Shown here: piece after piece, positions 29,742-34,050 of the stretch | Numbering within the stretch: the first letter of the stretch is position 1 | Layout: the number at the start of each line of letters is the position of its first letter | Assembly (NCBI GenBank): GCA_030684405.1 | Contig: JAUXYA010000011.1 | Span: 310,001 to 374,000, forward strand | Reading direction: 5' to 3' | DNA: 64,000 nucleotides | Source: Burkholderiales bacterium | GTDB lineage: Bacteria; Pseudomonadota; Gammaproteobacteria; Burkholderiales; SG8-41 | Position numbers and translations under genes: made by a program | Notes under the pieces: generated by a model | What the model was told of the DNA's origin: nothing | Seen by the model: only the letters and a program-made list of their open reading frames with translations | The model's database searches: none

Positions 29742-30054
29742 TTGAGAGGGCCCGATCGGGCGGAAATACCGCAGGGACAGTCATGAAACAGCCATACGCC
29801 GGATAAAGTCAAGGCACTCCGGGGCACCAGCCGGCAAAGGCACCGTTCCTGGCTCCAGAACAAATAAATAACTTTTTGTTTTTAAACGTTATTTAAGCCG
29901 TATCGACTGGCTGCCGCGTTTTGAATTCCTGCAAGACACGCGGTTCTGGAACGATAGGCATCCGATTAACATCGGATAGCGCCGTATCGGATACGGAGTG
30001 GACTTCATTCAAACGTTCCCGTATTTCATCGGGAATACCGGCCGGAACTACTTT
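29742..30054. other. Gap without a recognised gene
   Basis: Contains an AT-rich patch at about 29862-29896 with an inverted pair AAATAAC/GTTATTT, then a mixed-composition stretch with short repeats of ATCCGAT / ATCGGAT. It lies downstream of the leftward 370-residue gene and upstream of the exported-protein gene. No open frame was supported. Confidence 0.45.
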
Positions 30055-31167
30055 TCAGCGCCGCCGGAAATCCTCCACCGATTTCGCCAGCCTGCCATCT
30101 TCCGTCTTCAGCGCACGAGTCACTGGCAGGGTGGCGCCGAACGTCGGCACGAAGGCGGAGTGCTTGCCGGCGCCCCCGATCACCGCGATCAGCAGATCTT
30201 CCGGCCGCTGCACCGCGTACAACACGTCATCCGGCTTCGGATCCGGCAGGCGGTCCTTCCATGTGACCTTCACCCGACGCTCGATGTTGTCACGCGACAG
30301 CTTGGCCACGGGCAGGGTCGCATGCTGCTGCAGGAAGCGTTTGGCTTCGTCCTTCGAATACGCGGCTGCAATGGTCCTGGCATGCTCGGGCCCCATGATC
30401 ACCAGCGGCTGCGCCTTGTAGTAAATGTCGTTGGAACCGGAAACGGCCATTGTGCCGGCAATGGTGGTCAGCAATCCTTCACCGTCTAGGCTTTCGTGGT
30501 CGTTGATGTTGTGCGGGCACTCGGCGCCGATCACCGTCACCGCGCTCGCTTCCCGCGGCAGGCCGCGTTCCACGTGCAGCGGCTCCCAGGGGCTCTCGTC
30601 CTCGTTCTCAGCGACCAGATAGCTGTATTTCGCAGGCGAGCCGAAGGTCGACATGTCGCCCAGCGCCGGAATCGCTCCGCCGATGTTGAGCAGCGCCAGC
30701 CGGATCGCGCGACCGATCGTCGCATTGGCCCTGTTGCCGGGACCGAAAGCGTTGTGCCCGGAGTTCAGGCCAAGTTCCTTCGTCACCGGCCCGTTGACGA
30801 TCACCAGCGGCGCGCAAAGGTGTGTCGTCGCCTGGACGCCGTAGAGGTTCAACGGCTCCTCGCACATTGCTTCGATCGCCAGCAGGTAGAGCGGGAAATA
30901 GCGCGGCTCGCAGCCCGCCATTACCGCATTGGCGGCCAGCCGCAGCGGCGTCGCTTCGCCCCAGCGCGGCGGAATCTTGGCCACCGGCTGGTCCCAGGGA
31001 CGGTCGCAATACTCGAGCATCGCCGCGACACGCGCCTCGGTCGGGGGTACTACCGGAAGCCCGTCGCCCCAGCCCTTCTCCATCATCAGCGCGTTGACCG
31101 AATCGAAATCGCCGTCGGCTTCAATGCTTGCACCCGACGCCTGCAGCAACTGTGCAAGGTTGCTCAT
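30055..31167 (-). CDS. UGSC-linked protein of unknown function, 370 residues
   Basis: This 370-residue protein has no signal peptide and no recognised fold motif. Its ATG overlaps the stop of the selenoprotein gene (ATGA), so the two are translationally coupled and probably act together. It begins with FDSVNALMMEKGWGDGLPVV and PPTEARVAAML. Several cysteines lie in likely conserved spots: AGCEPRYFP, AMCEEPLN, THLCAPLVI and GAECPHNIN. The last could be a metal or thiol site facing the selenoprotein. Whether it is an enzyme is unknown; a role with the Sec-containing partner is inferred from the overlap alone. Confidence 0.8.
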   Translation of the reverse strand: MSNLAQLLQASGASIEADGDFDSVNALMMEKGWGDGLPVVPPTEARVAAMLEYCDRPWDQPVAKIPPRWGEATPLRLAANAVMAGCEPRYFPLYLLAIEAMCEEPLNLYGVQATTHLCAPLVIVNGPVTKELGLNSGHNAFGPGNRANATIGRAIRLALLNIGGAIPALGDMSTFGSPAKYSYLVAENEDESPWEPLHVERGLPREASAVTVIGAECPHNINDHESLDGEGLLTTIAGTMAVSGSNDIYYKAQPLVIMGPEHARTIAAAYSKDEAKRFLQQHATLPVAKLSRDNIERRVKVTWKDRLPDPKPDDVLYAVQRPEDLLIAVIGGAGKHSAFVPTFGATLPVTRALKTEDGRLAKSVEDFRRR

Positions 31168-31703
31168 TGCGACTTCTCCTTCAGCAGTTTCACGAATTGC
31201 GGCACTGCCTGGTCGGCACGCGCCTTGACGCCCTCGATCGACTGGCCGCCCAGCGGATGCTGGATGACCAGCAGCGGCAAATCAGGTACGCCGAACACAC
31301 GTGCCTGAGCCTGTCCCAATTTGAGGAAAGGGTCGGAGCAGATCACTGCGGTCGTCAGACCGCGCTTCCGGAGGTTCGCCATGTCGTGGACACTCCACGA
31401 CGTGCACGACCCTCAATCGGCCATTGCGGTAATGACGTAATCCGATTCGGCTGCAAGCCGATCAAGGATTTCGGCGGGCGCGGGAAGACTGACGCTGTCT
31501 TTGCGCAGCGACACCACCGAGGCCACCGGCAGCAACGCCTTGACGCCGTCGACGATGAACTTCAGCAGATGGTCGGCATTGCCCTTGCTGTTGTCGAGCA
31601 CGCCGAGGCGGATGCCACCCTTCGCGACAGCACGCGTTTCGGTGGTGTCCACAGACTGCGGCGACGGCGCCTCCGGAACGACCAGACGAATTTTCTGATT
31701 CAT
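31164..31703 (-). CDS. UGSC-family selenoprotein (in-frame TGA read as selenocysteine)
   Basis: The frame from the ATG at 31703 to the stop at 31164 is open except for one TGA at 31413-31415, which is residue 97 of 179. Around it the protein reads ITAMAD, the TGA residue, then GSCTSWSVHDMANLRKRG, giving the Sec-Gly-Ser-Cys motif of the family I know as UGSC (seleno)proteins. The sequence on both sides is in the same frame and has coding character. The downstream part has no start codon of its own with a ribosome site. A strong stem-loop follows the TGA (31383-31401). Sec and Cys likely form a redox pair. The ATG at 31703 has GGAGTCC near it and is preferred over one 36 codons upstream. It overlaps the 370-residue gene. 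Loss of function by a nonsense change is the alternative. Confidence 0.85.
31383..31401 (-). promoter_or_regulatory. Putative bacterial SECIS stem-loop
   Basis: Eleven bases after the TGA on the minus strand, GTCGTGGA pairs perfectly with TCCACGAC around a GTG loop. The apical loop begins with G about 20 bases after the TGA. This spacing and a guanine in the loop fit the general form of bacterial SECIS elements recognised by SelB. It lies in coding sequence, as required. Confidence 0.7.
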
Positions 31704-31926
31704 GTTGGACTCCTGCAAACGATTGATACGCACTCGTAATGTTCGCGAAATACGCCGCAGGACTTTAGCGTATGCGAGGCGGCGTCGCAATGCGTCAACT
31801 CTGTAATCCACTTGCGCCGAGACGCAGGAATCAGCAGCGCCGCGCGTCGCGAGAAAAGATCCTCGCGAGGCTCAGTCGGTCACTGCAGTTCTCCCAGCCG
31901 TGGATCGCAGCGGTCCGTGCGCCCGC

Positions 31927-32934
31927 TTACGGCGCTGGCATCCTCGCCAGCCCGAGGTCGGTCAGGATCGACTTTATCTCCTTGAACTCCTTCTCGATAT
32001 GCGCGTTGGTCTGCTTGCGGTCGAGCGGTTCATTGGGGATGTAGTGCTTGGCGAGCTCCTTTTCCCATTCGTCGCTTGCGGTAAGCTTTTTGAGCGAAAC
32101 GTCCCAATAGTCCGCCTGCGCGTTGCTTAAGCCCTTCGGCGCAATGGCAAGCCGCCAGTTCTCAGCGACTATCGGAATGCCGGCCTCGATGAGCGTGGGC
32201 ACCGTCGCGTAGATGCCAGGGGCGCGCTTGGGCGCGGCAACCGCGAGCGGCCGGAGTTGCATGTTCTGGAACGGGCTGGCGGTAGCCGAGAGTGAGTTCA
32301 CGAACAGATCAACGTGACCACCGAGCAGGCCGGAGATGGCCTGCCCACTGCCGGAGAACACGACAACTTTCATTTTGCGCAAATCGACACCCGCGGCCTT
32401 GGCGAGTCGCCCAATCGCAATGTGATTCGCGCCGCCCGCGCTGCTGGATACACCCGCGACCACCGAACCCGGATCAGCCTTGAGCGCCTTGGTAAGGTCG
32501 CTGATGCTCTTGTACGGCGAGTCCGCGCGTACCGAATAAGCGATGTACTCGCTCGCAAGCAGCGAGATCAGCGTGAAGTCCGTGTAGGTGAGTTTGCTCG
32601 TGCCGTTGATGTAGTTGGCGACGATGTTGTACGAAGTGATGAGCAGATGGTGCGGATCCCCCGCGCGCTGACTGAGGTAAGCCCAGCTTACCGCGCCGCC
32701 GCCGCCCGGCCTGTTGACCACAATGACCGGGACCCCGAGCGCCTTCTGCTCGCGCCAGATCTGCTCCATCAGCCGCGCCACTCGGTCGGTACCGGTGCCC
32801 GCGCTGGAGCCTACGATAACCTCGACATTCCTTTCGGGCTTCCAGCCGCTTTGCGCGTGCGCGGCAAGGCTTCCGGCAAACACGAGTGATACACATACCG
32901 CAATCAGGCCGCTACGCATAAACGATCTCCTCAC
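31927..32934 (-). CDS. Bug/TctC-family periplasmic solute-binding protein
   Basis: This 335-residue protein has a signal peptide (about 1-27, ending AAHAQ). The Bug fold follows, with NVEVIVGSSAGTGTDRVARL and VIVVNRPGGGGAVSWAYL replacing the more usual NKPGAGG. No TctA or TctB gene adjoins, so it is an orphan binding protein or works with a remote permease. It lies 224 bases upstream of the selenoprotein gene on the same strand and may be part of the same transcript. Confidence 0.9.
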   Translation of the reverse strand: MRRSFMRSGLIAVCVSLVFAGSLAAHAQSGWKPERNVEVIVGSSAGTGTDRVARLMEQIWREQKALGVPVIVVNRPGGGGAVSWAYLSQRAGDPHHLLITSYNIVANYINGTSKLTYTDFTLISLLASEYIAYSVRADSPYKSISDLTKALKADPGSVVAGVSSSAGGANHIAIGRLAKAAGVDLRKMKVVVFSGSGQAISGLLGGHVDLFVNSLSATASPFQNMQLRPLAVAAPKRAPGIYATVPTLIEAGIPIVAENWRLAIAPKGLSNAQADYWDVSLKKLTASDEWEKELAKHYIPNEPLDRKQTNAHIEKEFKEIKSILTDLGLARMPAP

Positions 32935-33122
32935 TTTTAGTTGTTCCAGCCGGGATTAGCCCGCGCACCACTACCATAAAGCAGACATTTTTTATAAGGC
33001 GGCGCTGGTGAACACGCCGAAAGCCCGCGTGGGCAAAGCTTAGCCTATTTTTTCCGCTGACTCCCTTTGCATTATATGGACTCTCACAGCACCCGCGAAC
33101 CGGTCTGGAGCCGCGCGCAACA

Positions 33123-33869
33123 TCACCGCAGCGCGAGCAACCGACCCCAGCCCACGACCGGCGGCGCAACACCGGCGACAATCAGGCGCCACACCGGCGC
33201 GATCGGATTGGTGATCACCGGCACGCCGAAGTCCTCCTCAAGGATAGGCACCGCGGCGAGACTGCGCCATGCACCGCCAGCGAGCAGCAGTGCCTGAGCC
33301 TCAGGCGCCTTGTGCATCGCCTCACGGCCGAGCTGGAAGGCGAGCTTGACACCCGCCTCGATGCTCATCGAGAACGCCTGTTTCGCCCACTGACCGGCGG
33401 TGGTAATCGCAAGCACCTTGATGCCCGCCTCACCGAGATAGGCGACGAAAGCCTTGTTGAGCTCCGGCGTCCAGCGGCTGGCGATAGCAATCTCCTTTGC
33501 ACCCAGGTACTTGAGCGCAGCGATGGTCGCCTCCGCCTGCGAGTCGGCGATGACACCGGTGCGCTTCGCAGTTTCCTCCTGCAGCGCGAGGACGCGCTTT
33601 CTGCCGAGCTGCGAAGCAATTGGAAAACCCGCCAGCGTGATGCTCTGTGCACCCTGCTGCACCAGCGCATCGACACATGGCCAATAACGCGTGCGAATTG
33701 CATGATCGACGCCGTCTGGCGTGTAGTCGGCGATCTCGATCGAACTCGCTACGCGCACGACTGATGGTGGCAGCAGTGGCTCCGGCCGCGACATCGGGTT
33801 GCGATCCTCGCCGATTGGCGTAACAGTACCGGCGACGAAGCGCGCCCCGGCCGGTTCGTTCTTGCCCAT
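33123..33869 (-). CDS. Asp/Glu racemase-fold protein (maleate isomerase / AMDase-like), catalytic Cys missing
   Basis: This 248-residue protein resembles the Asp/Glu racemase superfamily, close to maleate cis-trans isomerases and arylmalonate decarboxylases. The second half shows EAQALLLAGGAWRSLAAVPI, then GVPVITNPIAPVWRLI, the family's second active-site loop. Where the catalytic cysteine usually sits (ALLLSCTN-like), there is AGG. The first-site loop (ITLAGFPIASQLG) also lacks Cys. The only Cys is in RYWPCVDAL. The ATG at 33869 follows a GGAGGAG ribosome site. It may be inactive, or use other chemistry. Confidence 0.8.
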   Translation of the reverse strand: MGKNEPAGARFVAGTVTPIGEDRNPMSRPEPLLPPSVVRVASSIEIADYTPDGVDHAIRTRYWPCVDALVQQGAQSITLAGFPIASQLGRKRVLALQEETAKRTGVIADSQAEATIAALKYLGAKEIAIASRWTPELNKAFVAYLGEAGIKVLAITTAGQWAKQAFSMSIEAGVKLAFQLGREAMHKAPEAQALLLAGGAWRSLAAVPILEEDFGVPVITNPIAPVWRLIVAGVAPPVVGWGRLLALR

Positions 33870-34050
33870 TGCATCTCCTCCTGGTTGGCTCTTGAGCTGA
33901 ATGGCTGACTTGTTGTTGCGCCGGTCTTGGTGCACGGCATCGACTTCGGAACTATACCGCGACCCGCCGTATTACTCGCTATCATATGTCTGCACCATCA
34001 CGATTCCACATTACGACTTCGCCTCGCCGAATACCACGGAGGAAACACCA

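Follow-up and report, generated by a model that had tools for sequence, protein, structure and literature searches.

A UGSC-family selenoprotein gene with a near-constant partner gene: a candidate two-subunit enzyme with probable kinship to selenoprotein B

Introduction

Among the closest described systems to the one reported here are the selenoprotein B proteins GrdB, PrdB and FarB (PF07355) of the glycine, betaine, proline and fluoroacetate reductases. They share with UGSC-family proteins a UxxC motif (UGTCT in GrdB) and, on the profile evidence given below, probably a homologous selenocysteine (Sec) domain, but they differ from UGSC in the PF07355 match itself and in their pyruvoyl partner of the GrdE/PrdA type. 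According to PMC10838667, GrdB-type enzymes in Synergistota have been proposed to cleave even C-F bonds, and several substrate-specific protein B paralogues are found per genome; UGSC, too, can have several copies in one genome.

The UGSC family itself was among the most abundant selenoprotein families of the GOS survey (PMC2398784), and a 2026 review counts it among the families of largely uncharacterised function (PMC13188914). The portions of PMC2398784, PMC13188914, PMC9312934 and PMC5029168 that were available describe UGSC only as a Sec family, and the literature searched, which included few subscription journals, named in its accessible text neither a function for UGSC nor a kinship with GrdB/PrdB. 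Here we describe a UGSC locus of a Burkholderiales bacterium, its partner gene and its relatives, and we propose an enzyme to which they may belong.

Results

The window, a stretch of 64,000 nucleotides from a Burkholderiales genome (contig JAUXYA010000011.1, positions 310,001 to 374,000), carries on its minus strand a UGSC-family selenoprotein gene at 31164..31703 with an in-frame TGA at 31413..31415. A first-pass annotation had read it as one minus-strand protein of 179 residues, obtained by reading through this TGA and carrying Sec97 in the UGSC motif, and both the translation and the family scores agree with that reading. The start codon, an ATG at 31703, is preceded at a distance of 6 nt by the sequence AGGAG (31710..31714, minus strand), probably the ribosome-binding site, and the true stop of the frame is a second TGA (31164-31166, minus strand). 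Codon 97 stands in the context AMAD-U-GSCTSW, where UGSC occupies residues 97-100, and the [U/C]GxC motif of the family is present. The protein scored 157.8 bits against Pfam PF24696 (UGSC; cut-off 25) over residues 8-175 and profile positions 3-171 of 172, with similarity on both sides of the TGA, and 129 bits against NCBIfam NF041046, 'UGSC family (seleno)protein' (cut-off 125), over profile positions 3-146 of 147, which bears out the family membership that had been proposed for it. The window protein and the NF041046/PF24696 family have the scores, the UGSC motif and the Sec with rare Cys in common and differ in nothing essential; the gene is a further member of a known selenoprotein family, and in kind the finding is an ordinary one. 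The locus had also been described as two ORFs parted only by the TGA. Six-frame translation does yield two ORFs, but the pieces do not exactly abut: the upstream mechanical ORF begins farther out, at 31811 with a GTG start, and the first start codon of the downstream one lies at 31382. The expectation that ordinary annotation would split the gene at this point holds for a naive gene caller, but NCBI already has the NF041046 model for the family.

At the TGA site, the residue among the 166 partner-paired UGSC copies listed was Sec in 160, Cys in four (a Sphingomonas MAG, a Binatia MAG and two mycobacteria) and another residue in two degenerate copies; Cys forms may be under-sampled in these counts because the loci were taken from best-scoring or capped lists (in one of them the best 80 of 582). 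Cys at the TGA position, suggested beforehand as something to look for in homologues, is thus found, and this is the classical Sec/Cys exchange. Carriers of Sec forms include Vineibacter terrae and Bacillus dakarensis. Most of the named records are MAGs, related copies are not independent, and overlapping loci (L019, L044 and L050-L053) were dropped before copies were counted.

A bacterial SECIS element is a hairpin directly 3' of the TGA, within a certain distance range, with a G at the start of its apical loop. A hairpin of this type is present in the window at 31383..31401 (minus strand), where GTCGTGGA-GTG-TCCACGAC (31401-31383) forms a perfect 8-bp stem with a 3-nt GUG loop. The stem begins 11 bases past the TGA and the loop follows after 19 nt, and the sequence reads exactly as the first-pass annotation had it. 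The TGA and the next 48 nt fold 4.2 SD (z -4.21) below 60 synonymous-codon shuffles. The survey covered 167 distinct UGSC genes with a TGA, taken both from relatives and from named genomes. A hairpin of at least 5 bp was found in 166 of them, a 3-nt loop beginning exactly 19 nt past the TGA in 142, and a G within the first two loop bases in 163 of the 166 hairpin-bearing genes, while 25 of the 167 were off the common register. Since the hairpin lies within coding sequence, the tests on synonymous changes are the strong ones. The loop codon encodes serine in 143 of the 167 genes and is AGT in every one of these 143, whereas AGT makes up 6.1% of the 1060 serine codons in the rest of these genes; among 68 representatives (<65% identity), the loop serine is AGT in 51 of 51. 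Base 17, the neighbour of the closing pair, combines with the third position of the opposite Val codon as G-C in 63 cases, C-G in 38 and A-G in one, with zero G-G and zero C-C, a swap made via synonymous valine codons that is also seen in the representatives (G-C 29, C-G 7; Fisher 1.2e-7).

The same hairpin was examined in alignment A9, made of 67 of 69 sequences (the 68 representatives and the window sequence) without the divergent L144:16323 and L160:1794. Paired cells amounted to 90.7%, against 18.5-51.5% in slid controls, and covariation to 0.261, against 0.113 in shuffled alignments, with 0 of 500 shuffles as high. Shuffles gave 8.7 two-sided changes where the alignment has 37; counted by the pairs that show such a change, the difference was less striking (6 versus 3.9, reached by 28 of 500). 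The mean folding excess over synonymous shuffles was modest (z -1.24 over the 167 genes, 54% of them below -1), and two of the four Cys homologues fold here to some extent too, with z -3.1 in L150 and z -1.75 in L130, where the hairpin is kept, against -0.5 and +0.5 in the others. In the window's genome, a covariance model of the family hairpin ranked the window site best (54.7 bits), a rank that is partly built in because the model includes the window sequence and 150 of 3551 candidates were scored. The best four genome sites were four of the five UGSC genes, the window first, and the fifth (on C35) was absent among the 18 matches listed; with training sequences included and this gene absent, the result serves as a check rather than as independent proof. 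Two further matches, C32:4074 and C2:113571, were rejected as Sec genes on account of reading frames unlike those of Sec genes. Rfam gave zero matches up to E 0.1 over 30000-33000. The hairpin has the behaviour of a SECIS element, and across homologues it is maintained through compensatory and synonymous changes.

The window's genome (3.74 Mb in 37 contigs, 99.4% complete) contains a complete Sec machinery. It has a tRNA-Sec gene (selC; 75.9 bits, cut-off 47), which ARAGORN reports as tRNA-SeC with anticodon tca, SelB (434 bits, cut-off 242), SelA (585 bits, cut-off 268), whose gene adjoins selB, and SelD (424 bits, cut-off 125), whose gene itself has one TGA. The first-pass annotation had held that selA, selB, selC and selD must exist in this genome and that a lack of selB or selC would speak against its reading; all four are present above curated cut-offs, selB and selC among them. 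The TGA at 31413-31415 is very probably decoded as selenocysteine. The genome carries at least eight Sec genes, namely SelD, five UGSC genes and two PrdB-like genes. Of the latter, L184 (G000:C27:68906-69259) has its in-frame TGA, as UPQC, just past the end of the Pfam GRDB match, and L194 (G000:C35:95725-95937) has a TGA as UPNC past that match and a similar GUG-loop hairpin.

A second gene, encoding 370 residues, lies on the same strand at 30055..31167, and its ATG overlaps the UGSC stop as ATGA (31164-31167). No Pfam or NCBIfam family matched its product at E <= 0.001. Among the loci listed, a partner homologue lies on the same strand within 700 bp of UGSC in 166 of 173 copies; of the seven others, L025 and L039 are on short loci, L025 having a partial match at the edge. 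UGSC comes first in 63 of the 166 pairs, the partner comes first in 51, and the two are fused in one frame in 52. These three arrangements of one pair argue for a two-subunit enzyme. Seen from the partner side, in the best 80 of 582 loci, UGSC lies within 700 bp of 86 of 105 partner domains and within 2.5 kb of a further 14, many of which are second, tandem partners; five domains are without UGSC, three of them at contig ends. The taxa of these loci, as given in record titles, include Betaproteobacteria, Rokubacteria, Chloroflexota, Alphaproteobacteria, Acidobacteria, mycobacteria, Bacillus and others. The distance matrices of UGSC and partner correlate with r 0.79 over 72 non-redundant pairs (permutation maximum 0.25) and with r 0.94 over 13 paralogues of one genome, where none of 2000 permutations was as high, yet the highest reached 0.92. 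The partner has one near-invariant Cys, conserved as Cys86 (alignment A5, of 50 of the 105 partner domains and the window's, was made for this family), and joint loss of the UGSC Cys and the partner Cys was not significant (p 0.07). Because a near-constant partner gene belongs to UGSC, the element of interest is larger than had been seen at first. A fusion of UGSC with a domain termed 'Unknown_1' is already in print (PMC2398784); that 'Unknown_1' is the partner described here is a guess on our side.

Relatives of the window's genome carry GrdB-like and small PrdB-like proteins, so named here in part for their PF07355 matches, in which Sec lies at or just past the end of the Pfam GRDB match. 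In L174-L197, the matches to Pfam GRDB (PF07355) end at Sec or a few residues before it and leave the Sec domain uncovered, so that a count of stop codons within the match gives none. A first comparison with GrdB was uninformative because the Pfam GRDB match stops before Sec, and the true C-terminal domain was used instead; alignment A8 holds 13 of the 24 GrdB/PrdB-like sequences found in relatives. When UGSC was compared with the Sec domain of GrdB/PrdB by hhalign, the profile of 173 rows gave Prob 94.6 and P 7e-8 over 118 columns, and that of 22 rows Prob 84.7 and P 6.7e-6, with Sec aligned on Sec. Masking the Sec motif on both sides lowered Prob to 54.7 with 173 rows and to 29.3 with 22 rows, but the masked score of 31.7 still exceeded the highest of 100 column shuffles, 23.3. 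Neither the reversed profile nor the partner gave any match to the Sec domain of GrdB/PrdB. Other hallmarks of selenoprotein B were looked for as well. UGSC is the sole Pfam match of the window protein at E <= 0.001, with none to PF07355; PF09338 (GrdE-type) has 0 matches in the window's genome and is found in one of six genomes, G021; and the partner shows no similarity to the GrdE-like protein of G021 and no sequence link to the N-terminal part of GrdB. UGSC is therefore not GrdB or PrdB, and, as the partner has no link to the N-terminal part of GrdB or to GrdE, the substrate-binding half of the GrdB analogy is unsupported. We take the profile comparisons as moderate evidence for UGSC being a distant offshoot of selenoprotein B.

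UGSC matches were found in 36 of 36 other searched genomes of the genus and family, in 3 of 24 elsewhere in the order, and in 4 of 298 further genomes sampled from across the phylum. The relative G021, of the same family, has 58 UGSC matches, one below the cut-off and some partial, a number that may be over-counted because the assembly is in about 330 contigs; 51 of the 58 have exactly one in-frame TGA. The first-pass annotation had called UGSC a small family, a description at odds with these 58 matches in one genome and with its rank in the GOS survey. Three of the G021 matches (C307:2580-3122, C45:3329-3712 and C7:46801-47088) contain a TAG or TAA in addition to the TGA and are probably decaying paralogues. 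G021 also carries a GrdB-like gene and two PrdB-like Sec genes. Its UGSC copies alone approach the record selenoproteomes of 57 and 63 genes reported in PMC13188914. Environmental MAG records titled Bordetella parapertussis (L107, L153 and L159) have UGSC pairs; their titles look like taxonomic misassignments.

Upstream of the UGSC gene, on the same strand, the window encodes a TctC-type periplasmic solute receptor (31927..32934; Pfam TctC, 101 bits) and an arylmalonate decarboxylase/Asp-Glu racemase-like protein (33123..33935; Pfam Amdase, 87.6 bits), the latter below the NCBIfam equivalog cut-off (77.7 versus 225). Neighbour families were scanned in 215 of 475 nearby ORFs (same strand, within 1.6 kb, below 900 aa). 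TctC-like proteins made up 36 of 84 same-strand neighbours in relatives versus 11 of 306 control genes (p 2.7e-18), the controls being drawn from 400 kb of picked stretches of two genomes and the 84 neighbours spanning more genomes; within the two control genomes the enrichment was 4/16 (p 0.004). In the 80 named loci (best 80 of 582) the count was 25/130, without a matched control. The other UGSC neighbours were catabolic and very diverse enzymes, and the neighbours of Cys-type copies in mycobacteria, Sphingomonas and Binatia showed no common pathway. Together, the many paralogues, the adjoining receptors and the diversity of enzymes suggest a single reaction on imported organic acids of which each version has its own substrate.

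Structure was approached through a natural UGSC-partner fusion from L112, whose model had pLDDT 90.9 and pTM 0.90; the structure alignment A3 comprises 23 of the 24 fusions with one TGA (all except L153) and the two window proteins, and alignment A4 leaves out L107. In the model of the UGSC domain, strands and helices alternate in a Rossmann-like order, and Sec opens the helix after the third strand of the domain. Structure matches were generic, with a best Z of 10.6 over 133 residues (8s7v_H) followed by many near 9, and for the UGSC domain consisted of receiver, nucleotide-binding, flavodoxin-like and Rossmann-like folds; because the lists of the fused model are filled by this domain, they say little on the partner. 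Searches of the PDB by sequence and profile gave no sequence relative and no credible profile match for UGSC, weak chance matches for the partner and none for GrdB.

These predictions bear on an alternative that we consider unlikely, namely that the selenoprotein is a general thiol-disulphide oxidoreductase or peroxidase of the thioredoxin-like type and the partner its protein substrate or a scaffold. Thioredoxin-fold selenoproteins have the same UxxC spacing as UGSC, and pyridine-nucleotide oxidoreductases (Pyr_redox_2) occur among the UGSC neighbours (3/107 and 6/108). The 2008 GOS paper called the fold 'likely' thioredoxin-like and tabulated this spacing for many other families (PMC2398784). 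The predicted succession of strands and helices, Rossmann-like and with Sec following strand 3, and the Rossmann-like, receiver and flavodoxin-like matches point elsewhere, as does the profile kinship, which is with GrdB/PrdB; thioredoxin folds were absent from the structure-match lists, although such lists cannot exclude them. In addition, 58 matches in one genome and adjoining receptors fit substrate-specific enzymes better than a housekeeping redox function.

The window partner, modelled alone (pLDDT 93.5, pTM 0.92), had zero Foldseek matches at E <= 0.001. Its first hits were chains of Leishmania fumarate hydratase (best E 1.3e-3), with cyclic amide hydrolases lower down, and MmgE/PrpD-type genes are found near UGSC (4/107 and 2/108). 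Such matches would fit a non-redox hydratase, lyase or isomerase in which Sec serves as nucleophile or metal ligand and the partner is akin to iron-sulphur (class I) fumarases or to Toblerone-fold hydrolases. We regard this as improbable: by VIA-align, the partner matched the fumarase and the hydrolase only with Z 4.3-5.2 and rmsd near 6, within the range of chance arrangements, and it has one near-invariant Cys, while the cluster of class I fumarases requires three. The best VIA-align Z of the partner was 6.2, which does not show a new fold. A further alternative takes the TGA as a genuine terminator, or as an artefact of sequencing or assembly, and the gene as split, truncated or a pseudogene. 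It is scarcely credible and is rejected: although six-frame reading yields two ORFs and three G021 matches with TAG or TAA look broken, 167 distinct homologues, in records from many phyla, have a TGA at this codon, sequence is conserved on both sides, the hairpin is conserved with synonymous covariation, and the Sec machinery is complete.

Discussion

Our preferred reading, which we consider reasonably probable, is that UGSC and its partner are the two parts of a selenium-dependent reductase acting on imported organic acids. In such an enzyme, SelB would decode the TGA at 31413-31415 as selenocysteine at the hairpin just downstream. UGSC would be the catalytic subunit, and the 370-residue partner, translated from the overlapping ATGA, would be the other. 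For the UGSC subunit a Rossmann-like domain is predicted, a putative distant relative of the Sec domain of selenoprotein B (GrdB/PrdB); its selenolate would open a helix, and Cys100 would follow three residues later. The partner may hold or activate a small organic acid brought in via the adjoining TctC-type receptor; the selenolate may then attack the substrate and displace a leaving group, as proposed for fluoroacetate reductase. For D-proline reductase, the same selenolate attack with loss of the leaving group has been proposed. The pair of Sec and Cys100, perhaps together with the conserved Cys86 of the partner, could be re-reduced by a thiol donor, and paralogous pairs with receptors of their own would serve different substrates. 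The selenocysteine, the partner and, moderately, the kinship are supported in this analysis; the chemistry, including the selenolate attack with loss of a leaving group, we infer from GrdB-type enzymes.

Beyond ordinary membership in a known family, a partner that is almost always present, a probable kinship with selenoprotein B, the link to receptors and the expansion in copy number make a long-unknown function testable, and turn an 'unknown redox protein' into a testable two-subunit enzyme. A wider proposal, which we put forward tentatively as possible but doubtful, is that UGSC pairs represent a new class of selenium-dependent, pyruvoyl-free reductases with a Sec domain homologous to that of GrdB/PrdB. 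Some Betaproteobacteria of lakes and groundwater (sources as given in record titles) would then hold dozens of substrate-specific pairs, many with an adjoining TctC, for reductive C-X cleavage in natural and man-made organic acids, and not necessarily as anaerobes. If the reading as a two-part reductase is right, one bacterial family would depend on selenium for broad organic-acid catabolism. In PMC13188914, large selenoproteomes are viewed as occurring mainly in anaerobes, and whether UGSC expansion conflicts with that view hinges on the oxygen relation of the carriers.

Six loci that are alphaproteobacterial by title (L128, L131, L135, L137, L140 and L157) have a second, tandem partner-like gene, mostly shorter than the first, so that some systems may have two different partner subunits.
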